Shown piece by piece: positions 17,047-61,959 of a stretch of 64,000 bases of DNA. A program made the position numbers and the translations under genes. The notes beneath the pieces were generated by a model. It was given only the letters and a program-made list of their open reading frames with translations, was not told where the DNA came from and made no database searches. Numbering within the stretch: the stretch's first letter is position 1; every line of letters starts with the position of its first letter. Origin of the DNA: Agrobacterium pusense (GTDB lineage Bacteria; Pseudomonadota; Alphaproteobacteria; Rhizobiales; Rhizobiaceae). The DNA lies in NCBI RefSeq assembly GCF_900102105.1, contig NZ_FNBB01000003.1, forward strand, positions 1 to 64,000. The letters are read 5' to 3'.

Positions 17047-17047
17047 C

Positions 17048-37026: not shown

Positions 37027-37167
37027 CAAAACGGCCCGCAAGAGCTCGATTTTGACCTGACAATGCTGATAAAAAAAGTCTAGTTAAGCGGCAAGCGTGC
37101 GGGAAAAGAAATCACTGCGGACAGTCCGGAGTAGCCTTTACGCAGTATTCCTATCACAGGTCCTCCA

Positions 37168-43514: not shown

Positions 43515-45317
43515 CTAGGCCAGGTGATGCGGCTTGGTCATTCCGTAGATGGGCGTCTCGATGCCCACCTGGCGGGCTTTCAACTGCAGCGACAGATATT
43601 GGGAATAATGGCGTGACTGATGCAGGTTGCCGCCGTGAAACCACAGGGCTTCCTGCTGTGTCGGTTTCCACATGTTGCGCTGCTCGCCTTCCCAGGGGCC
43701 TGGATCCTTGGTGGTGTTGGAGCCGAGGCCCCAGCATTTTCCGACCTTGTCCGCCACGTCGCGCGAGATGAGATCGGCGGCCCAGCCGTTCATTGAACCG
43801 TAGCCGGTGGCGTAGACCACGAGGTCAGCCGGCAGCTCCGTCCCATCCTTCAGGACGACTGCGTTCTCTGTCAGATGCGAGACGTCGACGCCAGACTTCA
43901 GTTTGATCGAACCGTCGATGACCAGATCGCAGGCCCCCACGTCGATGTAATATCCCGATCCCCTCCGCAGGTATTTCATGAACAGGCCCGAATCGTCGTC
44001 GCCGAAGTCGAGCATGAAACCGGCCTTTTCGAGCGCTTGGTAGAACTCGGCATCCCTTTCCCGAATCCTGTTGTAGATCGGGATCTGGAACTCATGCATG
44101 ATCCGGTAGGGCAGGGACGCAAAGATCAGGTCGGCCTTGCGCGTCGTCATGCCGCCCTGAACCGCCCGCTCGGAATAAAGATCGCCAAGGCCGATCTCCA
44201 TCAGCGAGTCCGACTTGACGATATGGGTCGACGAGCGCTGCAGCATGGTGACATCGGCGCCGGCTTCCCAGAGCGCTGCGCAGATATCGTGGGCCGAGTT
44301 GTTGGAGCCGATGACGACCACCTTCTTGCCGGCATAGGCATCCGGACCCGGATGCTGGGAAGAATGCTGCTGCTCGCCCTTGAAGATGTCCTGACCGGGG
44401 AATTTCGGCACATTGGCCTTGCCCGACATGCCGGTTGCCAGCACGAGCTGCTTCGGCTTGAGGACGACCTCTCTGCCGTCGCGATCGACGACGACGGTCC
44501 ATTCGCCGGCCTTCTCGTCGTATTGGGCGGATTTGCAGGTCGTGGAGCCCCAGTAATTCAGTTCCATCACCTTGGTGTACATTTCCAGCCAGTCGCCCAC
44601 CTTGTCTTTTGGGGTGAATACCGGCCAGTTTTCCGGGAAGGGAATGTAAGGAAGGTGATCGTACCACACAGGGTCGTGCAGGCAGAGTGACTTGTAGCGC
44701 TTGCGCCAGCTGTCACCGGGCCGCTCGTTCTTCTCTATGATGATCGTCGGAACGCCGAGCTGGCGAAGGCGTGCGCCGAGCGCGATGCCGCCCTGGCCGC
44801 CACCGATGATGACGACATAGGGCTGGGACGTGTAACCGAGTTCCACCGCCTCGCTTTCGCGCTTTTCCTTCCAGGTCGTGCGGTTTCTGTCATGGCCGTG
44901 CTCCGCCCCCATCGGGCGGCGGAAGCCCTTCGGCTCCTCATGGCCCTTCAGTTCGGTCATGGTGGTCAAGAGGGTCCAGATCAGACCATCCTTCAAACGG
45001 ATATGGCCATAGCCGCGGGCAACCCCCGTTTCGAATTCGAACCAGCCTTCGGTAACGCCGCCCGCTTCGGAAGCGGCCTCCCTGGTGTCCTGCACAAAGT
45101 TGGACGGTTTGGTTGCGGCAAGCTGGCTGGAAAGCATGTCGCGGACCTGCTCGCGGCCTTCGAGGGTCTTCAGGTTCCAGGTAAAGGTCACCAGATCTCG
45201 CCAGTAGCAATCCGCCTGAAACAGGTTGGCGGCGGCGTCCACGTCGCCTTTCGCCAGCGCTCCTTCGAGCTTCGCAAGGGCCGTGTCGATCTTGGTTCCG
45301 GGGCTGATATCGAGCAT
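43515..45317 (-). CDS. Flavin monooxygenase with N-terminal SnoaL-like domain
   Basis: Protein of 600 residues. The first 130 residues look like a SnoaL/NTF2-type domain (KIDTALAKLEGALAKGDVDAAANLFQADCYWRDLVTFTWNLKTLEGREQVRDML). The rest is a class B flavin monooxygenase: FAD site GGGQGGIALGARLRQLG (near 175), the FMO motif region FPGQDIFKGEQQHSSQH with a variant ending, NADPH site VVIGSNNSAHDICAALWEAG (near 345) and ATGYGSMNG near the end. It resembles YUCCA-like and Baeyer-Villiger-type enzymes. Start 45317 follows GGAGGAGA. It is the second gene after the sigma-54 promoter at 46548. Substrate perhaps a ketone formed by the preceding dehydrogenase. Confidence 0.85.
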   Translation of the reverse strand: MLDISPGTKIDTALAKLEGALAKGDVDAAANLFQADCYWRDLVTFTWNLKTLEGREQVRDMLSSQLAATKPSNFVQDTREAASEAGGVTEGWFEFETGVARGYGHIRLKDGLIWTLLTTMTELKGHEEPKGFRRPMGAEHGHDRNRTTWKEKRESEAVELGYTSQPYVVIIGGGQGGIALGARLRQLGVPTIIIEKNERPGDSWRKRYKSLCLHDPVWYDHLPYIPFPENWPVFTPKDKVGDWLEMYTKVMELNYWGSTTCKSAQYDEKAGEWTVVVDRDGREVVLKPKQLVLATGMSGKANVPKFPGQDIFKGEQQHSSQHPGPDAYAGKKVVVIGSNNSAHDICAALWEAGADVTMLQRSSTHIVKSDSLMEIGLGDLYSERAVQGGMTTRKADLIFASLPYRIMHEFQIPIYNRIRERDAEFYQALEKAGFMLDFGDDDSGLFMKYLRRGSGYYIDVGACDLVIDGSIKLKSGVDVSHLTENAVVLKDGTELPADLVVYATGYGSMNGWAADLISRDVADKVGKCWGLGSNTTKDPGPWEGEQRNMWKPTQQEALWFHGGNLHQSRHYSQYLSLQLKARQVGIETPIYGMTKPHHLA

Positions 45318-45435: not shown

Positions 45436-46509
45436 TTATTTCGAGAGATCGATCAGGATCTTCAGGTGGGTGCCGGCCGGATCGAGGAGGGCGTCGAAGC
45501 CCTCTTTCACGGCCGTTTCAAGCGTGACGCGCTTGGTGACAATCTTCGTCGCCGGCAGGAGGCCGGATGAGATCAGGCTGATGACACGCGGCCAGTAATG
45601 GGTCGGATAGGCCCAGGAGCCTTTGACCTCGAGATCGCGGAACGTGACCTGGAACCAGTCGATCGGATTCTCATGCGGATGCAGGCCTGTCTGAACGACG
45701 ACGCCCTGCTTGCGCACAGCATCCACGCATGCCTTCAGGGCGTGTTCGTTGCCGACGCATTCGATCGCAACGTCGCATCCCACCCGGCCCTCGGTCTGGG
45801 CGCGGACGACATCGCCAACCTTTTCGCGCTTCGGATTGATGGCGACAAGGTCAGGCAGGACTTTCTTGGCAAGCCCGAGGCGGGCATCGTTCAGGTCCGA
45901 GACGAACAGCTTGGTGGCACCGGCCGCTCGGGCCGCCAGCAGTGTCAGCATGCCGATCGGGCCGGCACCCGTAACGAGAACGCTGTTACCGGCGGTGACG
46001 CCGCCACGGTCGCAGGCATAGACGGCAACCGCCGTCGGCTCGACGAGTGCGGCCTCTTCATCGGTCATCTCGTCTGGGATCTTCTGGACATTATATTCGT
46101 GAACCAGCGCGGCTTCAGCCATGCCTCCGCCATTCCAGCTGAGACCCACGAGTGCGAGTTGCGGGCTGAGATGGAAAAGGCCGCGGTCGGCGAAGTAGTC
46201 GCCGGAGCGCGGCATGACGAGAGGCTGGATCGAGACGCGGTCGCCGATGGCGACCGAGGTCACGCCTTCACCGATGGCTTCGACAACGCCGCCGAACTCG
46301 TGGCCGAGGACCTGCGGGCCGTGGGCGCCGGTAAACGGATGCGGCTCGGTCGGGATGAAGATCGGGCCATAGCTGTATTCGTGAAGATCCGTTCCGCAAA
46401 TTCCGACGAAGCGGTTGCGGACGATGACCTGGCCCGGTCCCGCCTGTCTCGGCTCGGGGATGTCCTCGAGCCGCAAGTCCTTTGCGGCGTGAAATCTGAG
46501 GGCGCGCAT
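45436..46509 (-). CDS. Butanediol-dehydrogenase-like MDR oxidoreductase
   Basis: Medium-chain dehydrogenase of 357 residues. Catalytic metal ligands: Cys38 in ICGTDLHEY, His70-Glu71 in LGHEFGG and the Glu in LVEPTAVAVYAC; NAD site VTGAGPIGMLTLLAARAAGA near 180. It matches (R,R)-2,3-butanediol dehydrogenases, but the structural-zinc lobe, which normally has four Cys, contains none here (SIQPLVMPRSGDYFADRGLF). Start follows AAGGAGGAAAC. It is the first gene after the sigma-54 promoter. Likely oxidises a vicinal diol, hydroxyketone or sugar alcohol. Confidence 0.87.
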   Translation of the reverse strand: MRALRFHAAKDLRLEDIPEPRQAGPGQVIVRNRFVGICGTDLHEYSYGPIFIPTEPHPFTGAHGPQVLGHEFGGVVEAIGEGVTSVAIGDRVSIQPLVMPRSGDYFADRGLFHLSPQLALVGLSWNGGGMAEAALVHEYNVQKIPDEMTDEEAALVEPTAVAVYACDRGGVTAGNSVLVTGAGPIGMLTLLAARAAGATKLFVSDLNDARLGLAKKVLPDLVAINPKREKVGDVVRAQTEGRVGCDVAIECVGNEHALKACVDAVRKQGVVVQTGLHPHENPIDWFQVTFRDLEVKGSWAYPTHYWPRVISLISSGLLPATKIVTKRVTLETAVKEGFDALLDPAGTHLKILIDLSK

Positions 46510-46673: not shown

Positions 46674-48563
46674 TTAGTGCGGACGCTCTATACCGAACCG
46701 TCTCATCCGGCGATGGAGCGTCGTGCGATCGATACCAAGACGGCGGGCGGCTTCGGAGACGTTGCCCTTGCAACTCGTGAGGACGGCACGCAGGTCTGCT
46801 TCGAGGCTGTCGCCGATGCGCACGCTGGCAGGCTGCGACAAATGATCCGGCAGGTCCGTGATCTCGATCACACCATCGTCGCACAGCGCTGCGGCAAAGG
46901 CGATGGCATTGTCGAGTTCGCGGATATTGCCTGGCCAGCGATGGTTGAGGAGCAGCAGCCTCGCCGCGCCCGACAGCGTCAGGCGGCCGTCCTTCGTATT
47001 GTGTTTATCGAGCAGCTGCTCGAGGAGCCACGGCAGATCCTCGCGTTCATGGAGCGGCTGTAGCGACAGGACGGCGGCGTTGAGCCGATAATAGAGGTCT
47101 TCGCGGAACCCGCCTGCCGCGACCATGCTGGCCAGCGATCGATGCGAAGCGGAGACGACACGGAAACCGACCTTGCGCGCGACCGAGCCGCCGACGGGAA
47201 GTACCTCGCCCTCGGCGAGAACCCTGAGCAACCGGCTCTGGGCGGCATAGGACATGTCGCCGATCTCGTCGAGGAACAGCGTTCCGCCCTCGGCCTCCTC
47301 GATCAACCCCTTTTTCCCCTTGGCCAGCGCCCCGGTAAAAGCCCCCGGGACGTAACCGAAAAGTTCGCTCTCGATCAGCTGCTCCGGAATGGCGGCGCAA
47401 TTGACTGCCACGAAGCGGCCAGAAAGCCCGCTCATCTCATGAATGATGCGGGCGAGATATTCCTTGCCCGTCCCGGTCTCTCCCTGCAGCAATATCGGCA
47501 GTCTGCTGGGTGCAAGTTTGACTACCTTGCGCCTGAGGTCGTCGATCGCCGGCACATTGCCGCCGAGCCTGTTGATCGCCGGCGATCGGCCGGAAGTGCG
47601 GGCAGAGGGCACGTTGCCTGTGCGTTGCTGCGGTTCTATGGCATGGGCAAAGAGCAGCGAGCCGTCGCGAACGGCGATCCGCCGTTCCTGGGGCAGGCTG
47701 GCGCGGGTCAGCGAGGCCAACTCGTCGAGCCCCGCATGGAAGAAGTCCGTGACAGGCTGGCCGATCAGAAGCTCGGGCGTGCGCCAGTCGAGACCGCGCG
47801 ACGCGGCAAGAAGCCGGGCGCCGCCGTGAGTCATGCCGGTGATGCGCCCCGCACCGTCTACGGATATCGCCGCTTCCGGATCGACGTCGAGAAACTCCGG
47901 CGCTCCCGCAAAGCGCAGGACCAGATCGTGACGGCTGTTTGCCATGAGATTGGCAAGCTCGATCCGCCGCACCGTCGACGAAACGAGATGACGCGCCATG
48001 TTCTGGCTGGCTTTCAGGATTGGCGAACTCAGGAGTGAAATGTCGAGAACGGCCGCCAATGATCCTTGCGTATCATAGATTGGAGCTGCCGTGCAGGACA
48101 GGGGCGTGTGGGTGATGTCAAAATGGTCGGTCTGGTGGATCGTCAGGGCCTCGCCCGTGGCAATGCAGGCGCCCACCGCGCAGGTACCGGCCCGGGGCTC
48201 GGACCACTCGGAACCGAGATAGAGCCCCGCTTTGCGCAGATTGTTGTTGAAGGAGGGGTCACCCAGGAATTCAACGGTGACGCCAAGCCGATCCGACAAC
48301 AGCAACACGTAATTCTGTTCGGCAACCTGCCGGTAGAGCCGCTCCAGGCCGGAGCGGGCGATGTGTACCAGATCTTCCGCCTGCTGACGGTGTTCCCGCA
48401 GCCGTGTTTCCGAGACGATCACTGCCTCGCGCGCCTGCGCCGGATCGAGCTGGTAGGCGTCCAGACAGCGCCGCCAGGACTCCAGGACAACGGCGTCGCG
48501 GCCCGTGTTGGTTCCCTGCCCGACCCGCTCGATTTCCTTGACGTGATCCGTAAAACCCATCAA
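46674..48563 (-). CDS. AcoR-like sigma-54-dependent activator
   Basis: Enhancer-binding protein of 629 residues. An N-terminal GAF-type sensor (about 50-210) with SEWSEPRAGTCAVGACIATGEALTIHQTDHFDITHTPLSCTAAPI is typical of AcoR regulators of acetoin catabolism. A second small PAS-like segment comes next. The AAA+ core has Walker A GETGTGKE, the sigma-54 contact motif GAFTGA and Walker B GGTLFLDEIGDM. A Fis-type helix (GNVSEAARRLGIDRTTLHRRMRR) ends it. It lies just upstream of, and in line with, the palindrome and RpoN promoter of the dehydrogenase/monooxygenase pair, which it should activate in response to a small ketone or diol. Confidence 0.93.
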   Translation of the reverse strand: MMGFTDHVKEIERVGQGTNTGRDAVVLESWRRCLDAYQLDPAQAREAVIVSETRLREHRQQAEDLVHIARSGLERLYRQVAEQNYVLLLSDRLGVTVEFLGDPSFNNNLRKAGLYLGSEWSEPRAGTCAVGACIATGEALTIHQTDHFDITHTPLSCTAAPIYDTQGSLAAVLDISLLSSPILKASQNMARHLVSSTVRRIELANLMANSRHDLVLRFAGAPEFLDVDPEAAISVDGAGRITGMTHGGARLLAASRGLDWRTPELLIGQPVTDFFHAGLDELASLTRASLPQERRIAVRDGSLLFAHAIEPQQRTGNVPSARTSGRSPAINRLGGNVPAIDDLRRKVVKLAPSRLPILLQGETGTGKEYLARIIHEMSGLSGRFVAVNCAAIPEQLIESELFGYVPGAFTGALAKGKKGLIEEAEGGTLFLDEIGDMSYAAQSRLLRVLAEGEVLPVGGSVARKVGFRVVSASHRSLASMVAAGGFREDLYYRLNAAVLSLQPLHEREDLPWLLEQLLDKHNTKDGRLTLSGAARLLLLNHRWPGNIRELDNAIAFAAALCDDGVIEITDLPDHLSQPASVRIGDSLEADLRAVLTSCKGNVSEAARRLGIDRTTLHRRMRRFGIERPH

Positions 48564-50853: not shown

Positions 50854-51927
50854 TTAAAATCCGCTCTCGCAAAGCTCCCGCAGCTCGCTCGGACCGAGAT
50901 GATCAAGTGAAAGCTCCGGCAGCAGGTCATTGTCTGCCTCCAGATTGTGTGCGACCGATGCGGTAAAGATGCGAACGCCTGCCTCGTGCAGGATCGCAGG
51001 CCGGTTGACTATGCGGCCGAGAAGCACGGTTGGCAGTAGACCGAACGGCACATCTTCGAAAATGTAGCGACTTTGGATGGAGGATGGGCCCATTCCGCCT
51101 CGTCCTTCACGATGCATCTGCTGGTTCATTTCGGAAACAGAGGCGAGCGGCACATGGAAGGAGAGAGAAAAGTGTTCGCGAACTGTTTTGACCTCCAGGC
51201 CGAAGCTCTCGGCAATTGACAGTCGCTCGGCGTCGAGCGCCTCAATCAACTGACCGACCGCCGGTGTGACATGTTCGCCCTGTCCCCAGCTCTCCGCCTT
51301 TTCCATCCTTGTCAGGTTGAGCAATGCGATGCCGAGATGATTTTGAGGATTGAGGTTTGAGAGCGCGATGGCAAGCAAACCGTCACGTTCGACGAAGCGA
51401 TCACCGAAGAGTTCAGTGCACAGGCTCCGACCCTCAGCGGCTGCCGACTTCGGCAGGGTGGCAAAGTCCACCTTCTGGCGGATGGTGTTGACAACGACGC
51501 TGCGCCCGTCGGTTTGACGGCGGGCCGTCAGAAGCGTGGTCCCCCACGCAATGATCGGCAGCCGGAGCTGTCGTTCGGAAAGCCGCTTCGACAGATAGAG
51601 CGCTCCAAAGGAGCTATGGGAGCTGATGATGACGGGCAGTCCCGACCGCAAATGCGGCAGCGCCGCGTCGATAGCGGCACGATGACCGTTGGCCGGCATT
51701 GCAATGATGACCGCATCTGCATCCGCAACAGCGGCCTCGCAGGTTGCCGCGACGTCGACTGGACCGACGAAGTCCAACGCGCCGGTAGCAATGAGCGGTT
51801 TGCCTTCCGACAAGGGCGTAGCACTGCGCCCGGAGGGCGACCACAGTGACGGGCGATGTCCCGCTTCGGCGAGAAAAGCCGCCATGCCATAAGCAATCGA
51901 ACCCGCACCGAGAATGGCTATCCGCAT
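50854..51927 (-). CDS. Octopine/nopaline-dehydrogenase-family enzyme
   Basis: NAD(P)-dependent enzyme of 357 residues. The N-terminal Rossmann motif is ILGAGSIAYGMAAFLAEAGH, and VIIAMPANGHRAAIDAALPHL ends the nucleotide domain. The C-terminal half (NPQNHLGIALLNLTRMEKAESWGQGEHVTPAVGQLIEALDAERLSIAESFGL) matches the octopine/nopaline dehydrogenase domain, with the expected His and Asp region. Members join or split an amino acid and a keto acid (opine type). It is divergent from the LysR gene at 52315, beyond which lies the polyamine-type importer. It may act in the same pathway, making or degrading the imported compound. Confidence 0.85.
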   Translation of the reverse strand: MRIAILGAGSIAYGMAAFLAEAGHRPSLWSPSGRSATPLSEGKPLIATGALDFVGPVDVAATCEAAVADADAVIIAMPANGHRAAIDAALPHLRSGLPVIISSHSSFGALYLSKRLSERQLRLPIIAWGTTLLTARRQTDGRSVVVNTIRQKVDFATLPKSAAAEGRSLCTELFGDRFVERDGLLAIALSNLNPQNHLGIALLNLTRMEKAESWGQGEHVTPAVGQLIEALDAERLSIAESFGLEVKTVREHFSLSFHVPLASVSEMNQQMHREGRGGMGPSSIQSRYIFEDVPFGLLPTVLLGRIVNRPAILHEAGVRIFTASVAHNLEADNDLLPELSLDHLGPSELRELCESGF

Positions 51928-52314
51928 GTCATCTATCCTTTCGGTTGTAGGAGTAGGCGTGGCGCCACCCTCTGGTCTCTATCTTTCGCGCAGCACACAA
52001 ATCGGTTCTGTACATTGCCCGCCGATCGTTGCGCAAATGCATCATTTTTTCTGGCACGCCGGAAACCGCGTTCTCGGTTCTCCTGCCTCATTTAACAGCG
52101 CACCTGCCTACACCCTCAGCAAGTCTTGGCTCCTTCGAGTAAATGCATGTGCTGCATGAGCAAAAGCCGCGTCCTGAGGCTTAATTTTCTGCACAGTTCG
52201 AAGTCAGCGAGCCATCTTTTTCATCTTCTGCCCCTCGAACGAAAAATTCTCTTTTGTCACTAGCAGATATCATGCGTTTAATGCACATTAAATTTGTCAT
52301 AATGCAAAGGATGC
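51928..52314. other. Divergent promoter region
   Basis: Nearly 390 bp with no gene, between the opine-dehydrogenase-like gene and the LysR gene. It becomes AT-rich near the LysR start and contains the palindrome at 52277-52292. Confidence 0.5.
52277..52292. promoter_or_regulatory. Palindrome ahead of the LysR gene
   Basis: TTTAATGCACATTAAA has perfect 7-bp arms around CA and fits the T-N11-A form of LysR boxes. It ends about 23-32 bp before the possible LysR starts. Likely autoregulatory and/or shared with the divergent dehydrogenase gene. Confidence 0.6.
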
Positions 52315-53295
52315 ATGATAGCGATGGAGATACGCGAGCTCGAGGCGTTTCTGGCGGTAATGTCCGCAGGCAGCATTACCGGTGCTGCGCGCCTCCTAGA
52401 CCGTTCGCAATCTCAGGTGACGCGCCTCATTCAAGATCTCGAGACATCGCTCGGATTTCCGCTGTTCGATCGCAATGGCCCGCGTATTACGCCGAGTGAC
52501 AAGGGGGTGGCTTTCCACGCCGAAGCGGAGCGTTTCATCAGCGGCATCGAGCATCTGCGCAACCGTGCCCAACGGATCAGCCTCAAGGAGCCCGAGCCGG
52601 TCGAGATCGCGGCGACACCTGCTTTTGCAACCGGAATGGTGCCGCTAGCTCTCGCCGAACTACCGGAAGCCCTTCTTCCGCATACGGTCTTTTTAAGAAG
52701 CATGCCTGCCGAAGCCGCCGTTCAGGCGGTGCTGGGGCGTACCGCCGATTTCTGTGTGACGTCGCTCCCGGCCGAACAGCCCGGCCTCGAAGCGCACGGA
52801 TATTTTCAGGGCCGCTGTGCAGCCGTTCTGTCCGTTCACGATCCGCTGGCCGCCAAGGATGTCATTTCCGTGGCCGACCTGGCCGGCCAGACAGTCATTA
52901 CGCTTGCTAATCCGTTCCGTCTGCGTCGCCGGGTGGACAAGGCTCTGCAGGAGGCAAATGTTCGCGCACAACGGATCATAGCGACGAGCGCGGCGATGAG
53001 TGCGGTGCAGATCGCGTCGACCGGGATGGGGATTGCGATTGTCGAACCGGCAACCGCTTACGGTCCCCTGACCGCGGGCGTGACTGTGCGACCGCTCGAC
53101 GTCGACATCCCGTTCCTCTGGGGAATCTTCTCGGCAACAGCGCGCCCGCTGTCGGCCACTGCCCAGGAGCTGATCCAGTTGATCATCCGTGTTGCTTCCG
53201 CACGCATGCCCGATTTCACCGCTCACGATCCTGGCGCATCAGGACGTGTTGCGGATGTCACCTATGGGGGAACCGTCGAAGGAGACGTTCCCTAA
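52315..53295 (+). CDS. LysR-family regulator
   Basis: Regulator of 326 residues from ATG 52315 (AAAGG upstream); ATG 52324 gives the more family-like MEIRELEAFLAVMSAGSITGAARLLDRSQSQVTRLIQDLETSLGFPLFDR. The effector domain resembles that of amino-acid/opine-type regulators (OccR/NocR-like group) in length. It is divergent from the opine-dehydrogenase-like gene and 53 bp before the ABC importer, and is the clear candidate to control both. Confidence 0.9.
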   Translation: MIAMEIRELEAFLAVMSAGSITGAARLLDRSQSQVTRLIQDLETSLGFPLFDRNGPRITPSDKGVAFHAEAERFISGIEHLRNRAQRISLKEPEPVEIAATPAFATGMVPLALAELPEALLPHTVFLRSMPAEAAVQAVLGRTADFCVTSLPAEQPGLEAHGYFQGRCAAVLSVHDPLAAKDVISVADLAGQTVITLANPFRLRRRVDKALQEANVRAQRIIATSAAMSAVQIASTGMGIAIVEPATAYGPLTAGVTVRPLDVDIPFLWGIFSATARPLSATAQELIQLIIRVASARMPDFTAHDPGASGRVADVTYGGTVEGDVP

Positions 53296-53348
53296 AAATG
53301 CAAGTGCTCTGCCCATCAAACCGGTCAAACAAAAACAAGGAGATTGCC

Positions 53349-54449
53349 ATGAAAGAGTTTAAAGCGACCCGTCGTTCCACCCTCAAGCTGCTCGCTGCCG
53401 GCTCTGGCATCCTGGCGGCGCCCAGCCTGATGCGCTCCGCCCACGCGCAGGGCAAGGTCGTCAATATCACGACATATGACAAGTTCGTGCCGCAGTCTTT
53501 CATCGACCAGTTTCAGAAGGACACGGGGATCGAGATCCGCATCCGTCTGACGGACGATCAGGGCAAGCAATATAACATTCTGACGGCCGAAGGCGCCACA
53601 CCATCGACCGATATCGTGACGGTGACCGGCCACCGGCTCTCCCAGTTCATCGGTTCCAACCTCCTTTCGCCGCTTGATACCAGCCGACTGAAGAATTGGG
53701 ACAAGCTGGCAGCAGCTTACAAAGGCGCACCGCAGCTCACCATCAACGGCTCTACCTACGGCGTTCCGCTTTTGGCGGGCTTTGAAGGTCTGGCCCGTAA
53801 CACGGAGTACACCAAGCCTTCCGATAGCTGGGGCATGATGTTCGACGATGAATACAAGGGCCTGACATCCTACATCATTTCGGACTTCCTTTCGCTGACC
53901 ATGCTCTATCAGGGCAATGACGGCGATTATGTCACCTATGAAGGCAAGGAAGCCGTTGCCCAGGAAGCCACCAACAAGGCGCGCGACTTCCTGATCAGCC
54001 AAAAGGACAAGGTTCGCAAATACTACGATGCGGGCTCCGAGGTTCAGCAGATGTTCCTGAATGAAGACATCTACGTTGCGCAGGCCTGGTCCGGTCCAAC
54101 GTCCAAGCTGATCATGGACGGTCACCCCATCGAGCTGTCCGTTCCGAAGGAAGGCACCTACGGGTTCCTCTACTCCTTCAACGTGGTGAAGAACGGTCCG
54201 AATGCGGACGCTGCCTATACCTTCCTGGACGCTATCCTCGCCTCGCCGGAAATCGGGGCTGCCATGGTTCGGCAGTCGGGCTTCGCCTCGGCCTTTGATG
54301 GCGTCGACAAGCTGCTCAACGACCGCGAACGGGCCGCCATGGCGCTTCCACAGGACCAGATGGAGCGCATCAAGTTCTTCAGCTCGGTCAACCGGGCCAT
54401 GAAGAACGCGATGATCGATAAGGCAGCTGCCGAAATCAAGGCTGCCTGA
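53349..54449 (+). CDS. Polyamine-type ABC substrate-binding protein
   Basis: Periplasmic protein of 366 residues, family 8 (PotD/spermidine-putrescine type). ATG 53349 follows AAGGAGATTGCC; the N-terminus ATRRSTLKLLAAGSGILAAPSLMRSAHAQG is a Tat-type signal. VNITTYDKFVPQSFIDQFQKDTGIEIRIRLTDDQGK and VQQMFLNEDIYVAQAWSG are typical. The charged ligand may be a polyamine, an amino acid derivative or an opine. A stable hairpin follows the gene, as with the peptide-binding protein at 14348. Confidence 0.9.
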   Translation: MKEFKATRRSTLKLLAAGSGILAAPSLMRSAHAQGKVVNITTYDKFVPQSFIDQFQKDTGIEIRIRLTDDQGKQYNILTAEGATPSTDIVTVTGHRLSQFIGSNLLSPLDTSRLKNWDKLAAAYKGAPQLTINGSTYGVPLLAGFEGLARNTEYTKPSDSWGMMFDDEYKGLTSYIISDFLSLTMLYQGNDGDYVTYEGKEAVAQEATNKARDFLISQKDKVRKYYDAGSEVQQMFLNEDIYVAQAWSGPTSKLIMDGHPIELSVPKEGTYGFLYSFNVVKNGPNADAAYTFLDAILASPEIGAAMVRQSGFASAFDGVDKLLNDRERAAMALPQDQMERIKFFSSVNRAMKNAMIDKAAAEIKAA

Positions 54450-54463
54450 GTTACGGCTGCGAT

Positions 54464-54491
54464 GCGAACCCGACCTCGGCCGGGTTCGCAG
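54464..54491 (+). terminator. Stem-loop after the binding-protein gene
   Basis: TGCGAACCCG (54464-54473) and CGGGTTCGCA (54482-54491) form a perfect 10-bp stem with an 8-nt loop, 14 bp after the stop. Probably a partial terminator or mRNA stabiliser that lets the binding protein be made in excess. Confidence 0.65.
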
Positions 54492-54529
54492 GACCCCAAT
54501 AAAAAGCTTGTCCAGAGCTGGGAACGATC

Positions 54530-55513
54530 ATGGTGAACACGACAATGACTGAACTCCGAGAGGAAAGCGCGCCAGCCCCGGCGCATTATTCCGGATGGAT
54601 TGGCAAGGTGACAGGCTCAGCCCTTTACCGAACCACCATAGGCCGGCTGGCAGACAGTCGCCATGCGCGCCTCGCACTCCTTGCCGGGATACCCGTGATA
54701 TGGCTTTTCGTCCTGCATGTCGGGCCGATCCTGCAAATGGCCAATATCAGCTTCACGGACAACTATCCGCCTCAACCGAACGAGGCCACGCGCTATACGC
54801 TCGCCAACTATGCCCTGTTCTTCTCGGATTCGATTTACGTGCTGCCCTTCATACGCAGCCTCGTATTTGCCGCCGTCGTTACCGTGTCGACCCTGGTGAT
54901 CGTTTATCCGGTTGCCTATTACGTGGCGAAGGTGCTTCAGCCGAAGCAGCGTATGCGGGCGCTGCTGCTCCTGCTCATCCCATTCTGGGCCGGAGAACTG
55001 ATCCGTACCTTCTCGGTCATCATGCTTCTGGCCAATCGGGGAGCCGTCAACGTCCTGTTGCGCGAGATCGGCGTCATCGATCGGCCCATCCCGATGCTCT
55101 ACACGTCCTTCTCGCTGAGCTTCGGCGTTATCTACCTCCTGGCGCTCTACATGCTGCTCCCACTTTATTCAGCCATAGAAAAGATCCCGGTACAGCTGGT
55201 GCATGCCGCTGCCGATCTTGGCGCGAGCCCTTTCCAACGCTTCCGCCGCGTTATCCTGCCGCTGTCGAAAGACGGTATCGTGTCCGGCTGCAGCCTGGTT
55301 TACCTCACCGCCGTCGGAGTCTTCGCCGCCCCGCTGCTGCTCGGCGGGCCGAACGCCGTCATCTTCCCGGAGGTGATCGCGACGCTTTTCCACTCTTCCA
55401 ACGACAAATGGCCTGAAGGCGCTGCCTTCGCCATGCTGATGCTCGCCGTGTCGCTGACGACGGTTGGTCTCTTCATGCGCGTCGTTGGCGGTCGCTCTGT
55501 CCGGCTGATGTAG
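54530..55513 (+). CDS. Polyamine-type ABC permease (PotB-like)
   Basis: Permease of 327 residues. After a hydrophilic N-terminus of about 45 residues come six hydrophobic segments (LALLAGIPVIWLFVLHVGPIL onward). The EAA motif is AADLGASPFQRFRRVILPLSKDG. Family PotB. The second permease gene follows within 10 bp. Confidence 0.92.
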   Translation: MVNTTMTELREESAPAPAHYSGWIGKVTGSALYRTTIGRLADSRHARLALLAGIPVIWLFVLHVGPILQMANISFTDNYPPQPNEATRYTLANYALFFSDSIYVLPFIRSLVFAAVVTVSTLVIVYPVAYYVAKVLQPKQRMRALLLLLIPFWAGELIRTFSVIMLLANRGAVNVLLREIGVIDRPIPMLYTSFSLSFGVIYLLALYMLLPLYSAIEKIPVQLVHAAADLGASPFQRFRRVILPLSKDGIVSGCSLVYLTAVGVFAAPLLLGGPNAVIFPEVIATLFHSSNDKWPEGAAFAMLMLAVSLTTVGLFMRVVGGRSVRLM

Positions 55514-55522
55514 GAGATGATG

Positions 55523-56314
55523 ATGCGGTCCCCCTTAAACGACCTTCCGAAGACGGCACTTGGCGCCTGTTATGCCGTTTTCGTTATCTATCTGCTTTTG
55601 CCGCTGGCCCTGATGATGGCGATGAGCTTCAAGGATGCAAACTTCATCGCCTTTCCGATCAGTAACTGGACCCTGGACTGGTATGGCAAGGTACTTCAGG
55701 ACAAGCAGTTCATCGAAGCCTCGCTTTATTCGGTCGGAATAGCGTTTGCCACCACGATCGGAGCGACCGTCATCGGTGTGTGGATTGCCCTGCTGATTTC
55801 TACCGAGGGCATCCGCGGCAAGGCCATCCTCTTTGCGCTCGCCTGCCTGCCTGCCGTTGTTCCCGGCCTGATCAACGCCATCTCAATGCGGATATTCATC
55901 CGGATGGTCGATATCCCCACGGGCACCTTCGCGATTATCCTCTCCCATACCGTCCATGCGGTGCCGTTTGTCGTGATCATGGTGCTGACGCGCCTGCGTT
56001 CCATGCCCGCCAATCTCGTGGATGCGGCAAGAGACCTCGGGGCTGATGCATTTATCGCCTTCATGCGCGTTACGGTCCCCTACATCCTGCCGGCCCTGAT
56101 CGGCGGCATGATTTTCTGTGTTTTGACCAGCATCGATGATTTCGTGCGCACCTTCTTCCTGGGTGGATACAAGCCGACGCTACCGATGCTCATCTTCGCC
56201 AAAGTCCAGGGCGGCATGTCGCCAGAGATCAATGCGATGGCGACCATCGTCCTCATCGTCACCGCCGCCATCGGCCTTTATGCCGAGCACTTCACCCGCC
56301 GTTCGAGGAGCTGA
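55523..56314 (+). CDS. Polyamine-type ABC permease (PotC-like)
   Basis: Permease of about 263 residues. Three ATGs in a row occur at 55517, 55520 and 55523; GGAG at 55513-55516 favours the last by spacing. Segments include LGACYAVFVIYLLLPLALMMAMSFK and the EAA loop DAARDLGADAFIAFMRVTVPYILPAL. Forms the channel with the PotB-like protein. The ATPase gene starts 4 bp downstream. Confidence 0.92.
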   Translation: MRSPLNDLPKTALGACYAVFVIYLLLPLALMMAMSFKDANFIAFPISNWTLDWYGKVLQDKQFIEASLYSVGIAFATTIGATVIGVWIALLISTEGIRGKAILFALACLPAVVPGLINAISMRIFIRMVDIPTGTFAIILSHTVHAVPFVVIMVLTRLRSMPANLVDAARDLGADAFIAFMRVTVPYILPALIGGMIFCVLTSIDDFVRTFFLGGYKPTLPMLIFAKVQGGMSPEINAMATIVLIVTAAIGLYAEHFTRRSRS

Positions 56315-56317
56315 GTT

Positions 56318-57388
56318 ATGCAGCCGGTTGTTCATTTTAAAAACGTCAACAAGTCTTACGGCGCTTCTCTTGCTGTCGATGATCTGGACCTGGCGGTCGC
56401 GCCGGGCCAATTCGTTACCCTGCTTGGCCCCTCCGGCTGCGGCAAATCCACGACGCTGAGAATGCTGGGCGGGTTCGAAACGCCATCTTCCGGCGAAATC
56501 TACCTCGACGGGCAGCCGATCTCGCATCTGCCGCCCAATAGGCGCAACGTCAATATCGTCTTTCAGGATTATGCCCTGTTTCCGCACCTGTCAGTTCAGC
56601 GCAACATTGCCTTCGGACTTGAACTGAAGGGGCTGGATTCGGCGTCCATCCACCGCCGGGTCATGGAACTCCTCGGTCTCGTCAAGCTGCAGGATTTTGC
56701 CGGGCGAATGCCTGAGCAACTGTCGGGCGGTCAGCGCCAGCGCGTGGCCCTCATGCGGGCGCTGGCGCCGGACCCGAACGTCTTGTTGCTCGACGAGCCG
56801 CTATCGGCACTCGACGCCAAGCTGCGCCATGAGATGCAGATCGAGTTGAAGTCGATCCAGCAGACGACCGGCAAGACCTTCATCTTCGTCACCCATGATC
56901 AGGAAGAGGCCCTGACCATGTCTGACGTCGTGGTGGTGATGAACAAGGGGCGGATCGAGCAGATGGGAGCGCCTGATGATCTCTATGCCCGCCCCCGTAG
57001 CCGCTTCGTCGCCGACTTCATCGGTCAGAGCAACTTTCTCGAAGGCCGATTGGTGTCTGCCGAAGGCGATGTTGCAACAATTGAATGGCAGGGCAGTCTG
57101 ATCCGGGCCGATCTTAACGGCCACCATCACGCGGTTGGCAGCCACGTCACGATCGCGCTGCGTCCGGAAGCCCTGTTCTGTCTTCCCGAGCAGCCGAGTG
57201 ATCGTTTTGCCCTCAAGGGCCAGATCGAGCGGCGCGTGTTCAAGGGCGCGCACACGACGTTGACGATCCGCCTCGATAACGGCGCACTCCTGTCGGCCCA
57301 GCTCGATCCGGTGGCGCTCTCGCATCTTGATGGCGAGACGGTCTGGGTGAGTTGGCGCGATCGCGACGCCGTGGTGCTCGCCGATTAA
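56318..57388 (+). CDS. Polyamine-type ABC ATPase (PotA-like)
   Basis: ATP-binding subunit of 356 residues. Walker A GPSGCGKSTTLRMLGGFE, signature LSGGQRQRVALMRAL, Walker B VLLLDEPLSALDAKLR, then the C-terminal TOBE domain (IALRPEALFCLPEQ). It energises the importer formed by the two preceding permeases. The monooxygenase gene follows after 53 bp. Confidence 0.94.
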   Translation: MQPVVHFKNVNKSYGASLAVDDLDLAVAPGQFVTLLGPSGCGKSTTLRMLGGFETPSSGEIYLDGQPISHLPPNRRNVNIVFQDYALFPHLSVQRNIAFGLELKGLDSASIHRRVMELLGLVKLQDFAGRMPEQLSGGQRQRVALMRALAPDPNVLLLDEPLSALDAKLRHEMQIELKSIQQTTGKTFIFVTHDQEEALTMSDVVVVMNKGRIEQMGAPDDLYARPRSRFVADFIGQSNFLEGRLVSAEGDVATIEWQGSLIRADLNGHHHAVGSHVTIALRPEALFCLPEQPSDRFALKGQIERRVFKGAHTTLTIRLDNGALLSAQLDPVALSHLDGETVWVSWRDRDAVVLAD

Positions 57389-57441
57389 TCCTCATGCCCT
57401 TCGGTGCCGATGGGCAACAGTGAATTTCAGGAGATCACCTG

Positions 57442-58923
57442 ATGACTTTAGAACAGCAAGACCGGACCGAGCAGCAGAGACTAGCTGCGCTCAACGCCCG
57501 GGTGAGGCAGGATTTGTCCTACCTCAACTATCCCGCAGCAAACTGGTCGCAACCGGTCTCGACCTCAGACGGTCAGCTTGCCAGCGATGTCGTGATCATC
57601 GGCGGCGGCATGTGCGGCCTCGTCGCCTGGCATGCCCTGACAAGGGCAGGGATCGCCAATATCCGGATTGTGGACCGCGCCGCAAAAGGTGAAGAGGGGC
57701 CCTGGGTGACTTACGCGCGCATGGAAACCCTGCGCTCGCCCAAGAACCTGCTCGGGCCGGCGCTCGGTATGGCATCGCTCACCTTCAGGGCTTGGTACAC
57801 CGCCCGCTTTGGCGAAGAGGCCTGGGAAGAACTCTTCCGCATCCCGCGACCGATGTGGATGGAATATCTGAGCTGGTACCGGCAGGTGATGGAAATCCCG
57901 GTTGAAAACAACATCCACGTCACCCGCGTCATCCCACGGCCCGATGGGCTTCTGGAGCTGGAGATCGACGGCGGGAAGGCTCACCCGATCATCACCCGGA
58001 AACTGGTGATGGCAACAGGGCGCGATGGCCTTGGAGAACCGACGATCCCTGATTTTGTGAGGGGCATGCAACGTCACGTCAGCTGGGCGCATTCCGCCGA
58101 CATGATTGATTTTCAGCGTCTGAAGGGAAAACGCGTCGTTGTCATCGGGGTAGGGGCGTCCGCTGTGGACAATGCAGCGGAAGCGCTCGAGCAGGGGGCC
58201 GGTGAGGTGCGTCTTCTTGCCAGACGCAAGACAATGCCGACGATCAACAAGTTGATGGGCATCGGATCATACGGTGTCACCGCCGGCTTCGCGAAAATTG
58301 ACCCTGAGTGGCGCTGGCGTCTCATGGATTATTCCGTCAAGCAGCAGACCCCCGCGCCACACAATTCAACGCTGAGGGTGAGCCGACATCCCAACGCCTA
58401 TTTCCATTTCGACTGCGGTATCCAATCGATGAAGGAAGAGGGCGGCGAGGTTGTGATCACTACAATCAACGGCCGCGTTTTTCGGACCGATTTCGTGATT
58501 TTGGGAACGGGATTCTCAATCGACCCCGTCAGTCGTCCCGAACTCGAAATGTTCAACGGGCAGATCGCCTGCTGGGACGACCGCTACACGCCGCCACCAG
58601 GTGAGGAAAACCCTGGGCTCGGGCGATTCCCCTGGCTGCAAGACGACTTCTCTTTCACCGAGAAAGAGCCGGGTACCGCCCCTTGGCTGCAGCAGATCCA
58701 TTGTTTCAATTACGGTTCATCGGTCAGTCTGGGCAAAGTCAGCGGCGATATTCCGGCCATCAGCGAAGGTGCGCTCTGGCTCGCGCGAGGTATCGCCGCT
58801 TCGCTGTTCATCGCCGACATCGATCATCACTGGGAGGCGCTGAAGGCTTACGAAAAGCCTGAACTCGATGGGTCCGAATGGACCGATGCGGATGCCGACC
58901 CCACCATGCAGAAGACAGCCTGA
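57442..58923 (+). CDS. Flavin-dependent monooxygenase
   Basis: FAD/NAD(P)-binding protein of 493 residues. First Rossmann motif VVIIGGGMCGLVAWHAL (near 53), ETLRSPKNLLGPALGM common in N-hydroxylating and FMO-type enzymes, second Rossmann VVVIGVGASAVDNAAEAL (near 235), and the ILGTGF end motif (near 355). Start follows CAGGAG. It lies right after the ABC ATPase and before the isomerase-like and CMD-fold genes, suggesting that it oxygenates the imported compound. Possible N-hydroxylation of an amine is a reasonable but unproven idea. Confidence 0.82.
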   Translation: MTLEQQDRTEQQRLAALNARVRQDLSYLNYPAANWSQPVSTSDGQLASDVVIIGGGMCGLVAWHALTRAGIANIRIVDRAAKGEEGPWVTYARMETLRSPKNLLGPALGMASLTFRAWYTARFGEEAWEELFRIPRPMWMEYLSWYRQVMEIPVENNIHVTRVIPRPDGLLELEIDGGKAHPIITRKLVMATGRDGLGEPTIPDFVRGMQRHVSWAHSADMIDFQRLKGKRVVVIGVGASAVDNAAEALEQGAGEVRLLARRKTMPTINKLMGIGSYGVTAGFAKIDPEWRWRLMDYSVKQQTPAPHNSTLRVSRHPNAYFHFDCGIQSMKEEGGEVVITTINGRVFRTDFVILGTGFSIDPVSRPELEMFNGQIACWDDRYTPPPGEENPGLGRFPWLQDDFSFTEKEPGTAPWLQQIHCFNYGSSVSLGKVSGDIPAISEGALWLARGIAASLFIADIDHHWEALKAYEKPELDGSEWTDADADPTMQKTA

Positions 58924-58933
58924 GGTTAAGGCG

Positions 58934-59527
58934 ATGAGCAGAAAAACCGTTTATTATTACCATGCGCTCAGTTCGCCCTGGGCCTATCTGGGCTGGCCAC
59001 AGTTCAAGGCGCTGATTGAAAAGCACGATCTTGATATCGTCGTCCGCCCTACCCGCATCGTCACCGAAAACGGTGGTGTTCCACTTCGTTCCAGACCGCA
59101 GCCGCGGCAGGACTATCACGCCGCCGAACTGGAGCGCTGGCGCAAGCGTCTCAGTATGCCGTTGGTGCTGAAGCCCAGATATTATCCCACCAACAACGAG
59201 TTTTCCGCGCGCATGGTGATTGCGGCCGACAGGCAGGGTTTGCCTGCACTGGAACTCAGTCATGCACTTCTGCGGGCACTGTGGGCGGAGGAGCAGGACG
59301 TGACCGATCCGGACGTTCGCATCGCCGTGGCAAACGGCCTGGGTCTTGATGGTCGTGCGCTGCGTGCGCTCGAAGACACGCCCGAGATCATGGCGGCCTG
59401 GCATGACAGCCACGCCGAAGCACAGGCGCGTGGTGTCTTTGGAACCCCCACCTGGATTTACCGCGACACGCTCTATTGGGGGCAGGACCGCCTGACCTTC
59501 CTGGATGACGCTCTTTCCGAGGATTGA
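58934..59527 (+). CDS. DsbA-fold 2-hydroxychromene-carboxylate-isomerase-like protein
   Basis: Protein of 197 residues, start ATG 58934. YYYHALSSPWAYLGWPQFKALIEKHDLDIVVRPTRI is the thioredoxin-like N-terminus of the HCCA isomerase/kappa-GST group, with Ser in the active position (SSPWAY). An all-alpha insert follows, then GVFGTPTWIYRDTLYWGQDRLTFLDDAL, the cis-Pro region and end. Members are glutathione-dependent isomerases or transferases. In this operon it may process a product of the monooxygenase. Confidence 0.85.
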   Translation: MSRKTVYYYHALSSPWAYLGWPQFKALIEKHDLDIVVRPTRIVTENGGVPLRSRPQPRQDYHAAELERWRKRLSMPLVLKPRYYPTNNEFSARMVIAADRQGLPALELSHALLRALWAEEQDVTDPDVRIAVANGLGLDGRALRALEDTPEIMAAWHDSHAEAQARGVFGTPTWIYRDTLYWGQDRLTFLDDALSED

Positions 59528-59534
59528 AAAAACA

Positions 59535-60041
59535 ATGACAGCTACACCTCCAGAAGACGTGATCGACCGCGTCCTCGGCCTTGATGAAAGCTCCGATCTG
59601 CTGAAACTCCGCGAGCGGCGCTCTAAGCTCAAACACCTGACGCAGACCAGCTATCTTGCAGCTTTGCGGCCGGCAGAGCCACGCAACTTTTCCTACGCCC
59701 TGCGGGCGGCACTTGCCGCGCGTATGTCCGCTTTGTGGAAGGCGAAAGAACTTCATGCGCACTACATCGAGCGGCTTGCCGAGGAGGAGGGAGGCTCCGA
59801 CCACGCATCAGTCGCTGATCCGTCATCGGTCCTTCAGCACGCGGATTCCCGCCTGCAAGCCATCCTGAACCACGTCGATCTCGTGACCCTTACGCCGAAG
59901 AACGCGACCCGGGAAAACATTGAGAAACTCTATGCCGTTGGTCTCGACGACCGCGATATCGTCACGCTCGCCGGCCTGATTGCCTATGTGAATTATCAGG
60001 TGCTGGTCGTTGCCGGCCTCAAGATGATGAGGGACAATTGA
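59535..60041 (+). CDS. CMD-domain protein, Avi_7170-like
   Basis: Protein of 168 residues, start ATG 59535. The C-terminal half (LTPKNATRENIEKLYAVGLDDRDIVTLAGLIAYVNYQVLVVAGLKMM) is a carboxymuconolactone-decarboxylase/AhpD fold. The CxxC catalytic pair is absent. It matches the family I recall as CMD domain protein Avi_7170. The next gene encodes the companion with an intact CxxC, and the two probably form a complex or a successive pair. Confidence 0.78.
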   Translation: MTATPPEDVIDRVLGLDESSDLLKLRERRSKLKHLTQTSYLAALRPAEPRNFSYALRAALAARMSALWKAKELHAHYIERLAEEEGGSDHASVADPSSVLQHADSRLQAILNHVDLVTLTPKNATRENIEKLYAVGLDDRDIVTLAGLIAYVNYQVLVVAGLKMMRDN

Positions 60042-60042
60042 T

Positions 60043-60621
60043 ATGTCACAGCCCGTCCATGAATTCACCCTCGATGCGCTTGACTGGCATCCTTACGTCC
60101 AGCCTGTGGACCTTGCAAACGCGACCCCCGAGCAATTGTCGGCCCTGAAGGTCACCCCTTCCAATACCAAGGTATCGGCCTATGTCCTCGTACTCGCTAA
60201 CGAGGCGGAGGCGCTGAACGAGCGCACCCCGCTCTTCAACGATATCATGTATAGTGAAGGCGGATTGTCACGCGGTGGGCGCGAGATCGGCGCGCTGGCG
60301 GCATCCTTCGTCAATCACTGCATTTACTGCGCCGCTGTTCACGCCAACCGTTATATCCAGCTGGAGAAACGGCCCGAGGTCGTGGACGAAATATACAAGA
60401 ACGGGCTGGATGCGGACCTTCCTGATTTCGAGCAGGCGCTGTTCAATTTCGGTGTCGATCTGACCGCCCATCCAGACAATGTGGGGGTCTACCAATTTTA
60501 TCACTTGCGGGAAATCGGTCTGGATGATCTTGAAATTCTCGATCTCATCCATTCCATCGCCATCTTCGGCTGGGCGAACCGGCTGATGCATACGTTGGGT
60601 GAACCACATCGGAAAGAATAA
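60043..60621 (+). CDS. Alkylhydroperoxidase-domain protein, Avi_7169-like
   Basis: Protein of 192 residues, one base after the preceding gene. The AhpD-type redox centre is complete: FVNHCIYCAAVHANRYIQLEKR has CxxC followed by the His, and EIGALAASFVN supplies the Glu. Such proteins reduce peroxides or act as thiol-linked decarboxylase-like enzymes. In TIGRFAMs terms it is Avi_7169-like, usually paired with Avi_7170. In this operon it may detoxify hydroperoxide made by the monooxygenase or act on its product. Confidence 0.82.
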   Translation: MSQPVHEFTLDALDWHPYVQPVDLANATPEQLSALKVTPSNTKVSAYVLVLANEAEALNERTPLFNDIMYSEGGLSRGGREIGALAASFVNHCIYCAAVHANRYIQLEKRPEVVDEIYKNGLDADLPDFEQALFNFGVDLTAHPDNVGVYQFYHLREIGLDDLEILDLIHSIAIFGWANRLMHTLGEPHRKE

Positions 60622-61959
60622 GTGAAGGCAACGGCAATCACGGGGACCGAGGCAGCTGTCCGCCCGTTCGGCGTCGCGCATCGCGATGTCCTCAAAATCG
60701 CGATACCAATGATGATCGCCTATCTGTCGACCCCGCTTGTGGGTCTTGTGGCGACGGGCGTCATCGCGCATATGCGAAACGAGGCGCTGGTGGGCGGGGT
60801 GGCGCTGGCCTCGGTTATCTTCGATGTCATCTTCGTGACATTCAATTTTCTGCGCGGTGCCACCACCGGCTTTACGGCACAGGCAATGGGTGCCGGTGAC
60901 CGGGTAGGTGAACAGCGCATGTTGCTGAGCGGCCTTATCATCGCACTGGTGGCCGGTCTGTTGTTGCTGCTGCTCCAGGGCCCGATCGGTGCGCTTGGCA
61001 TGAGCGTCATGGGCGCAGAAGGGATTGTCGCTGAAGCCGCCTCGACCTATTTCCACTGGCGAATCTGGTCGGCCCCCTTCGTTCTCTTCAATTTTGTCGC
61101 CTTCGGCTGGCTCATTGGCCGCGGTGAGGCCATGTGGAGCATGATCCTCCAGACGCTGCTGAATGGCCTGAATGCCGCCCTCAGCGTTCATTGGGTCATA
61201 GGGCTCGGCTGGGGAGTGGAAGGTGTTGCTATCGCCACTTTGGTTGCAGAAGCCGTGACCGCCGTGGCAGGCGCAGCTTTGATCCTGGCCAAGACCGATC
61301 GCTCCTCCTGGCGGCTTCCTGATATACCGGCGATCAGACGATCCTTTGCGGTCAACGGCGACATGATGATCCGCTCGTTCGCATTGCTGATCGGCCTGTC
61401 CTTCTTCACCCGCCAGAGCGGCTTCCTCGGGATCGACGTGCTTGCCGCCAACACCATTCTGCTGCGTTTTTATTTCTTCGGGGTCGCCTTCCTTGACGGT
61501 GTCGCTACGGCAGCGGAACAGCTTGCCGGCCGCGCTGTCGGTGCACGTTATCGGCCGGCCTTTGACCGCACGATCAAGCTGACGACATTCTGGGGCCTGA
61601 TTTTTGCAGCGCTGGTTTCCCTGGCCTTCCTGGCCGCCGGGGATTGGGTGATTGCGCTGACAGCGCCCTCCGACGCCGTTGCGAGACTGGCCGATACCTA
61701 CCTGATTTACGTGGTGGTCTTGCCGGTTGTCGGCATCATCGCGTTTCAGATGGACGGCGTCTATATCGGGTCCACCTGGTCTCGGCAAATGCGCAACCTC
61801 ATGGTGGCATCCCTGATCATCTATTTCGCCGCCTGGGCGATCCTGCAGCCCCTTTACGGCAACGATGGCCTATGGATTTCGCTTCTCTTGTTTCAGGGCG
61901 CCCGCAGCATCGCCTTCCGGTTCATGCTTCCGAAACTTGCGGCGGCGACGTTCCGGTAA
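60622..61959 (+). CDS. MATE-family exporter
   Basis: Membrane protein of 445 residues starting at GTG 60622, directly after the previous stop, with GGAAAG upstream. Twelve hydrophobic segments; FGVAHRDVLKIAIPMMIAYLSTPLVGLVATGVIAHM and AIGL-like NFLRGATTGFTAQAMGAGD are MATE/DinF features. As the last gene of the cluster it may expel a toxic intermediate or a finished product. Proton or sodium antiport is expected. Confidence 0.9.
   Translation: MKATAITGTEAAVRPFGVAHRDVLKIAIPMMIAYLSTPLVGLVATGVIAHMRNEALVGGVALASVIFDVIFVTFNFLRGATTGFTAQAMGAGDRVGEQRMLLSGLIIALVAGLLLLLLQGPIGALGMSVMGAEGIVAEAASTYFHWRIWSAPFVLFNFVAFGWLIGRGEAMWSMILQTLLNGLNAALSVHWVIGLGWGVEGVAIATLVAEAVTAVAGAALILAKTDRSSWRLPDIPAIRRSFAVNGDMMIRSFALLIGLSFFTRQSGFLGIDVLAANTILLRFYFFGVAFLDGVATAAEQLAGRAVGARYRPAFDRTIKLTTFWGLIFAALVSLAFLAAGDWVIALTAPSDAVARLADTYLIYVVVLPVVGIIAFQMDGVYIGSTWSRQMRNLMVASLIIYFAAWAILQPLYGNDGLWISLLLFQGARSIAFRFMLPKLAAATFR

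Follow-up and report, generated by a model that had tools for sequence, protein, structure and literature searches.

A conserved opine-dehydrogenase and flavin-monooxygenase operon of Agrobacterium pusense, a candidate uptake-and-oxygenation pathway for an amino-acid-like compound

Eight co-located genes on pSymB of Sinorhizobium meliloti 1021, SMb20278-SMb20285, have been reported to follow one expression pattern and were read as a polyamine transport group (PMC3596328), and SMb20284 has been listed as a possible polyamine transporter (PMC3484140). According to the part of the former report available to us, wild-type expression of the group is higher with ammonium chloride than with glutamate; it is up in a glnD mutant, and a glnBglnK mutant represses the group when nitrogen is limiting (PMC3596328). 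Here we describe the same operon in a 64,000-nucleotide stretch of Agrobacterium pusense DNA (assembly GCF_900102105.1, contig NZ_FNBB01000003.1, positions 1 to 64,000; referred to as the window), where a gene for an opine-dehydrogenase-type NAD(P) enzyme (OpDH) is divergent from a LysR-type regulator gene that heads nine co-directional genes. With tags matched to genes by gene order, SMb20278-SMb20285 would run from CMD2 to LysR and comprise the LysR-type regulator, a Pot-like ATP-binding cassette (ABC) set, a flavin monooxygenase (FMO) and two CMD-fold proteins, CMD1 (called hypothetical) and CMD2. The S. meliloti cluster, labelled as polyamine uptake, differs from the window in that neither a DsbA-fold gene nor a MATE gene was found at the locus, and OpDH is unlisted in the text available. 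Its parts are known families and the S. meliloti cluster itself had already been noticed (PMC3596328). An earlier, sequence-only reading of the window had proposed a candidate undescribed pathway, and no description of the FMO-OpDH-Pot-CMD combination as a pathway was found in the open-access literature (most subscription journals lie outside it); for A. fabrum C58, guessed locus tags led, in the text available, only to a deletion range ending at Atu5408.

We report that the operon is a real conserved module, not a chance assembly, with a core of eight genes encoding the solute-binding protein (SBP), two permeases, the ATPase, FMO, CMD1, CMD2 and OpDH. Bacterial genome contigs were scanned with an FMO alignment and the best 80 of 494 confirmed candidates were kept, which biases the set toward near kin; any match at E <= 1e-5 anywhere within a locus was counted. 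FMO was present in 80 loci, CMD2 in 79, PotA in 78 (an inflated count, because other ABC ATPases also match), SBP in 77, and CMD1, PotB, PotC and OpDH in 76 each. The counts outside the core were 47 for Lrp, 38 each for MFS and a pyridoxal-phosphate (PLP) enzyme, 21 for LysR, 20 for MATE, 11 for the DsbA-fold gene and nine for a racemase. The four loci in which OpDH was not found are L116, L119 and two (L075, L078) whose contigs start just before LysR; in L101 it is set apart on the opposite strand. The core genes are kept across orders at 44-90% identity (CMD1 at 30-73%), and the usual order in Rhodobacterales, on a single strand, is FMO-CMD1-CMD2-OpDH-SBP-PotB-PotC-PotA. OpDH is hence co-directional and inside the operon there, and we count it as a genuine part of the module. 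The proposal that the genes form a single functional unit including OpDH is borne out by this linkage, and neither unlinked genes nor unrelated transcription was seen for the core, eight genes being co-regulated in S. meliloti with OpDH outside them in the text available (PMC3596328). The sequence-only reading had placed MATE export and a DsbA-fold isomerase-like protein in the pathway; we rejected both as essential steps, since they are missing from most of the 80 loci and neither was found in S. meliloti, and the two genes are accessory, not core.

A near sample, made up of the window's own genome and 60 relatives (61 in total), has six genomes with FMO at 76-100% and an adjoining OpDH at 69-100%. 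The DsbA-fold gene was not found between FMO and CMD1 in two of the six (L035, L038), and in L038 an Lrp/AsnC gene occupies the LysR position. Named copies are those of A. fabrum C58 (pAtC58, ATU_RS25880-25930), Shinella sp. WSC3-e and S. meliloti 1021 (pSymB), and the module is carried by various bacteria of soils and the sea as well as by plant associates. An FMO profile (E <= 1e-40) matched 28 of 385 genomes of the class and 23 of 398 of the phylum, the own genome being counted in each. One contig titled Enemella evansiae (L117), an actinobacterial name, bears a Rhodobacterales-type operon, and its label may be wrong.

All eleven genes named in the sequence-only reading are open frames at the coordinates given here, and their families, assigned via Pfam and NCBIfam models, are backed by these. 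OpDH (50854-51927, minus strand; Pfam Octopine_DH 3.5e-31) has an Octopine_DH helical domain scoring 108.7 bits against a Pfam cut-off of 30, together with N-terminal ApbA and F420_oxidored matches above cut-off. The sole solved relative found by sequence was N-(1-D-carboxyethyl)-L-norvaline dehydrogenase (CENDH, 1bg6; 2.7e-35), to which the OpDH model (pLDDT 91.3) superimposes with a TM-score (TM) of 0.88, while the opine dehydrogenases of metallophore synthesis are distant in fold (TM 0.64-0.72). H197 and D292 align to CENDH His202 and Asp297, its catalytic residues, and both are invariant in 33 of 33 sequences. By domain and catalytic-residue tests the enzyme is thus predicted to belong to the opine dehydrogenase (Octopine_DH) family. 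In Ensifer canadensis and Pararhizobium, genes for glycine C-acetyltransferase and threonine dehydrogenase come after OpDH.

FMO (57442-58923, plus strand, as are all genes described below; Pyr_redox_3 4e-19, Lys_Orn_oxgnase 2e-11, both above cut-off) is predicted to be a class B-type FAD monooxygenase, as it has the two Rossmann motifs (FAD, NADPH) and Pyr_redox_3: GGGMCG is found at 54-59 and GVGASA at 236-241, with G54, G56, G59, G236 and G238 invariant in 30 sequences. PF13434 scored 44.1 bits against a cut-off of 21.3, and PF13738 matched better. The model has a pLDDT of 79.8, and a fold search placed N-hydroxylating monooxygenases first, a weak match at TM 0.54-0.58 and a root-mean-square deviation of ~6-7; only remote sequence relatives were found in the PDB. 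The gene contents around FMO relatives outside the core group are too varied to indicate one substrate. A distant FMO (34%) on pAtK84b (L155, 5817-16415) is flanked by a gene annotated as nitrilotriacetate monooxygenase and, on its other side, by a peptide ABC importer accompanied by an acyl-CoA dehydrogenase; a similar FMO is present on a 214-kb contig of genome G006. Three other family members (L181, L183 and L193) have one in-frame stop each (TGA, TGA and TAG, respectively). The window itself carries a second flavin monooxygenase-like gene at 43515-45317 (SnoaL_2 and FMO-like domains), near an alcohol dehydrogenase (45436-46509) and a sigma-54 activator (46674-48563).

The importer consists of SBP (53349-54449, longest open reading frame from 53298; SBP_bac_8 1.1e-28), a PotB/PotH-like permease (54530-55513; BPD_transp_1, PotB model 1.9e-55, under its cut-off), a PotC/PotI-like permease (55517-56314; BPD_transp_1, PotC model 2.2e-45, under its cut-off) and a PotA-like ATPase with TOBE_2 (56318-57388; TIGR01187 357.2 against a cut-off of 355.6). 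PotB, PotC and PotA are the best models for the permeases and the ATPase, and TIGR01187 is alone among the polyamine models in scoring above cut-off. SBP, whose nearest solved relatives are Lmo0810 and PotF/SpuD-type proteins, has a Tat-like signal; in 63 of 71 relatives the signal region matches a loosely defined twin-arginine pattern. In PotF, W37, D39, D247 and D278 are ligand contacts, the tryptophan being 100% and the acids at least 96% conserved according to the available text (PMC8666671). These align (PotF numbering set in this analysis with an offset of 26 relative to the chain index) to Y60, K62, P267 and Y292 of SBP. Y60, P267 and Y292 are each invariant in 72 of 72 sequences, and position 62 holds aspartate in 35 of them, lysine in 21, asparagine in 15 and glutamate in one, so that loss of D39 is not general. 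With the PotF ligand residues replaced, the importer is of the Pot family by descent but fails as a polyamine pocket; we rejected polyamine importer identity, and with it the 'polyamine-type' importer of the sequence-only reading, and the 'polyamine' label that the module carries is probably wrong. R83, D86, D87, K90 and Q91 of SBP are conserved in at least 93% of the 72 sequences, and the ligand may be zwitterionic or acidic.

CMD2 (60043-60621; TIGR01926 237.9 against 81.8) is a peroxidase-related CMD protein that lies below the TIGR04030 (perox_Avi_7169) cut-off (151 against 233.15) and has CxxCxxxH, as do 79 of 79 relatives. Its partner CMD1 (59535-60041; TIGR04029, CMD_Avi_7170, 1.4e-28) has no Pfam match, is barely above its NCBIfam cut-off (100.8 against 100.75 bits) and lacks CxxC, as do 63 of 64 relatives. 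By the CMD/AhpD-like signature of CxxC plus a nearby His, CMD2 thus qualifies and CMD1 does not, and of the peroxide handling once ascribed to the pair the redox motif is kept in the former subunit only. In Azospirillum a single 1083-bp gene matches both, which makes a CMD1-CMD2 heteromer likely. The accessory DsbA-fold protein (58934-59527; DSBA 2.3e-30) is of the HCCA-isomerase/GST-kappa type, with 2-hydroxychromene-2-carboxylate (HCCA) isomerase as its nearest solved relative; a DsbA-type disulfide oxidoreductase was rejected, as CxxC is present in 0 of 11 relatives. The last gene encodes the accessory MATE family exporter (60622-61959; TIGR00797 187.2 against 147.4, and MatE).

OpDH and the LysR gene (52315-53295; HTH_1 and LysR_substrate) are separated by 387 bp. 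With the starts of SBP, the DsbA-fold gene and CMD1 set as RefSeq annotates them in the copy of C58, the gaps are 53 bp between LysR and SBP, 80 bp between SBP and PotB, and 0-53 bp from PotB onward. A 13-bp T-N11-A dyad, TGCGTTTAATGCA (52273-52285), occurs once in the window and in none of 100 shuffles, 29 bp before the longest LysR frame. Its degenerate form TRCGYTTNATGCA was present in 11 of 11 LysR-type intergenic regions, where 29-39 bp separate it from the point at which the LysR match begins, and in 0 of 13 other loci checked; given near-duplicates among the 11 (L036/L077, L079/L161 and L072/L080), these amount to about eight independent regions. A TGTCACT[AG]GC element precedes the dyad in 11 of 11 and a ATAATGCA-like element comes after it. 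The dyad is probably a LysR box, and in the window's clade LysR may bind it upstream of its own gene and drive the operon.

Among the 102 FMO loci that bear CMD2, OpDH (scored at >= 40% identity anywhere in the locus) was present in 81 of the 83 with a Pot-type set, both misses being at contig ends, and in three of the 19 without, which suggests that the presence of OpDH tracks the importer and not FMO and CMD. These three are L204, L125 (a contig-end fragment that ends in SBP) and L101. In the last (15552-19702), a TRAP-type FMO-CMD cassette is followed by what resembles, as judged by eye, a tripartite tricarboxylate transporter and then, on the other strand, by an opine-dehydrogenase gene. 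Other importers of sister FMO-CMD operons are polar-amino-acid, branched-chain-type, peptide-type (the latter two labels assigned in this analysis) and TRAP. The association of OpDH with the Pot set is strong over loci (Fisher p = 7e-14), but on the FMO tree it comes down to 3-4 changes (sign test p = 1), and OpDH/Pot importer co-evolution was dropped as independent evidence.

Our tentative preference is for a catabolic pathway that takes up and oxygenates an amino-acid-like compound. The likeliest candidate would be a secondary-amine (opine-like, N-carboxyalkyl) amino acid, 'opine-like' being a best guess. With similar reserve we propose that OpDH and FMO may catalyse successive steps on a single imported amino-acid derivative, with the CMD heteromer (one dead and one active subunit) as redox clean-up, and that FMO-CMD may be a reusable cassette fitted with an importer and a first enzyme for each substrate. 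The scheme that we infer, from the class of substrate and the direction in which OpDH works to the atom that is oxidised, the part played by the CMD pair and the binding of LysR, would run as follows. SBP and the Pot-type importer, whose families and linkage are clear, would bring the compound in; OpDH with NAD(P)+, judging from its family, may split it to yield a 2-oxo acid together with an amino acid or amine; FMO may oxygenate the released amine- or sulfur-bearing part; and the CMD2 thiol pair, together with non-catalytic CMD1, may reduce or clear the reactive oxygenated product. The MATE and MFS pumps, the DsbA-fold protein, the racemase and the PLP enzymes would be lineage-specific add-ons. 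This reading is supported because the core is conserved and almost every locus has OpDH within the operon or next to it, because OpDH is nearest to CENDH by sequence and fold with both catalytic residues kept, and because OpDH goes with the Pot importer and sister FMO/CMD operons use other importer classes. Further support comes from amino-acid-related regulators and extras (Lrp/AsnC in 47 of the 80 loci, and an Asp/Glu-racemase-like gene just upstream of SBP in nine), from the FMO fold being nearest to amino-acid and amine N-hydroxylases, and from the co-regulation of eight genes in S. meliloti (PMC3596328) together with the conserved box.

Several observations weigh against this catabolic pathway. 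The fold match of FMO is weak, with thioredoxin reductase also in the first ten; the few changes on the FMO tree mean that shared ancestry could explain the link of OpDH to the Pot importer, which is then a hint only; and distribution is patchy, the whole core being present in just one region (L203) of the 52 further FMO-family regions, which were taken from 56 distinct non-own FMO matches in the class and phylum samples. Moreover, OpDH is not among the eight co-regulated S. meliloti genes in the available text, and the higher expression on ammonium than on glutamate (PMC3596328) speaks against nitrogen scavenging, so that the uptake for nitrogen supply implied by the sequence-only reading is not upheld. 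These expression data bear on a rather unlikely alternative in which OpDH works reductively, trapping a reactive keto acid or imine in the form of an opine-type product for MATE or MFS to export, i.e., detoxification and not feeding: the S. meliloti genes are not raised under nitrogen limitation (PMC3596328), and MATE is found in 20 and MFS in 38 of the 80 loci. Yet the importer is present in nearly every copy and the exporters are not, with no MATE found at the S. meliloti locus. What remains in its favour, and counts against a catabolic OpDH, is that opine dehydrogenases usually run in, and favour, the reductive direction in vitro.

The main rival, doubtful but less so than reductive trapping, is salvage of a sulfur or selenium amino acid: FMO would S-oxygenate a thioether amino acid, the CMD pair would reduce the sulfenic product, a PLP enzyme or general metabolism would free the sulfur, and OpDH would take the C-N skeleton. 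It was raised by the neighbours of the FMO cluster in Rhizobium sp. TAL182 and by the 38 of 80 loci in which a SufS-like class V PLP enzyme lies upstream of FMO, with the motif RGGCACAG in 36 of these 38; the PLP enzyme P0014 matches the SufS model at 2.5e-39, far under its cut-off. In TAL182 (L156, 4938-9833) three genes lie beside Lrp and the CMD pair: one for a SufS-like PLP enzyme, one matching only the dioxygenase half of the Blh-type persulfide dioxygenase (2.1e-161, under its cut-off) and one for a transporter annotated as TauE/SafE. In S. meliloti, too, OpDH has a TauE/SafE-annotated neighbour, though the product of that gene is without an NCBIfam match. The Blh arrangement, however, comes from one locus only, no PLP match was found in the loci of the window's clade, and those in the window's genome are just two and distant (27-29%). 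A search for a close PLP partner elsewhere in that genome found none, the best being 27% over the whole length, and three genomes with a closer homologue (47-62%) have no FMO match, which argues against a tie between the PLP enzyme and FMO. Uptake and oxidation of polyamines, the reading given by the S. meliloti annotation, has the nearest models of the permeases and ATPase (PotB, PotC and PotA) and the literature label (PMC3596328, PMC3484140) behind it, but is very improbable given the replacement of PotF W37, D247 and D278 by the invariant Y60, P267 and Y292, and of D39 by K62 in the window SBP. Least probable of all is synthesis and export of an opine-type (staphylopine-like) metallophore, to which the distant fold likeness of OpDH and the exporter in some copies could point: no nicotianamine synthase was seen among the genes of the window operon and the annotated copies read (no model search for one was made), the most prominent component is an importer that includes a periplasmic binding protein, and CENDH is a much nearer relative.

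Elsewhere in the window we noted an iron-uptake-like cluster at 33317-39363, with a gene that has two FecCD stretches and a TonB-dependent receptor, and a FabMG-type enoyl-ACP reductase at 12406-13875. As to the operon, it is borne by much-studied models, A. fabrum C58 and S. meliloti 1021, and by a range of Rhodobacterales, and we found no tested function for it. Identifying the substrate would name a compound used by plant-associated and marine bacteria, assign a role to CMD pairs (TIGR04029/TIGR04030), which occur alongside other flavin monooxygenases too, and correct the automatic annotation of binding proteins and importers.

Compared with described systems, the operon combines familiar parts. 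The window importer has the same subunit families as the PotFGHI and PotABCD polyamine importers, but its SBP has a Tat-like signal and the polyamine-binding acids and Trp37 are replaced. The KPN_01858/Avi_7169-7170 modules (TIGR04028-TIGR04030; A. vitis, Erwinia) likewise join an ABC importer, a flavin-dependent monooxygenase and a CMD1/CMD2 pair; they differ in that a luciferase-like FMN monooxygenase replaces the FAD FMO, the importer is of another class, and no opine dehydrogenase is annotated in the two stretches read (A. vitis, Erwinia). CENDH shares fold, length and the catalytic His/Asp with the window OpDH, but the two are only 30% identical in structural alignment. Finally, SidA, PvdA, KtzI and putrescine N-hydroxylase are the best fold matches of FMO and have the Lys_Orn_oxgnase Pfam match in common with it, but FMO is 13-18% identical to these enzymes and its setting looks catabolic rather than one of siderophore synthesis.

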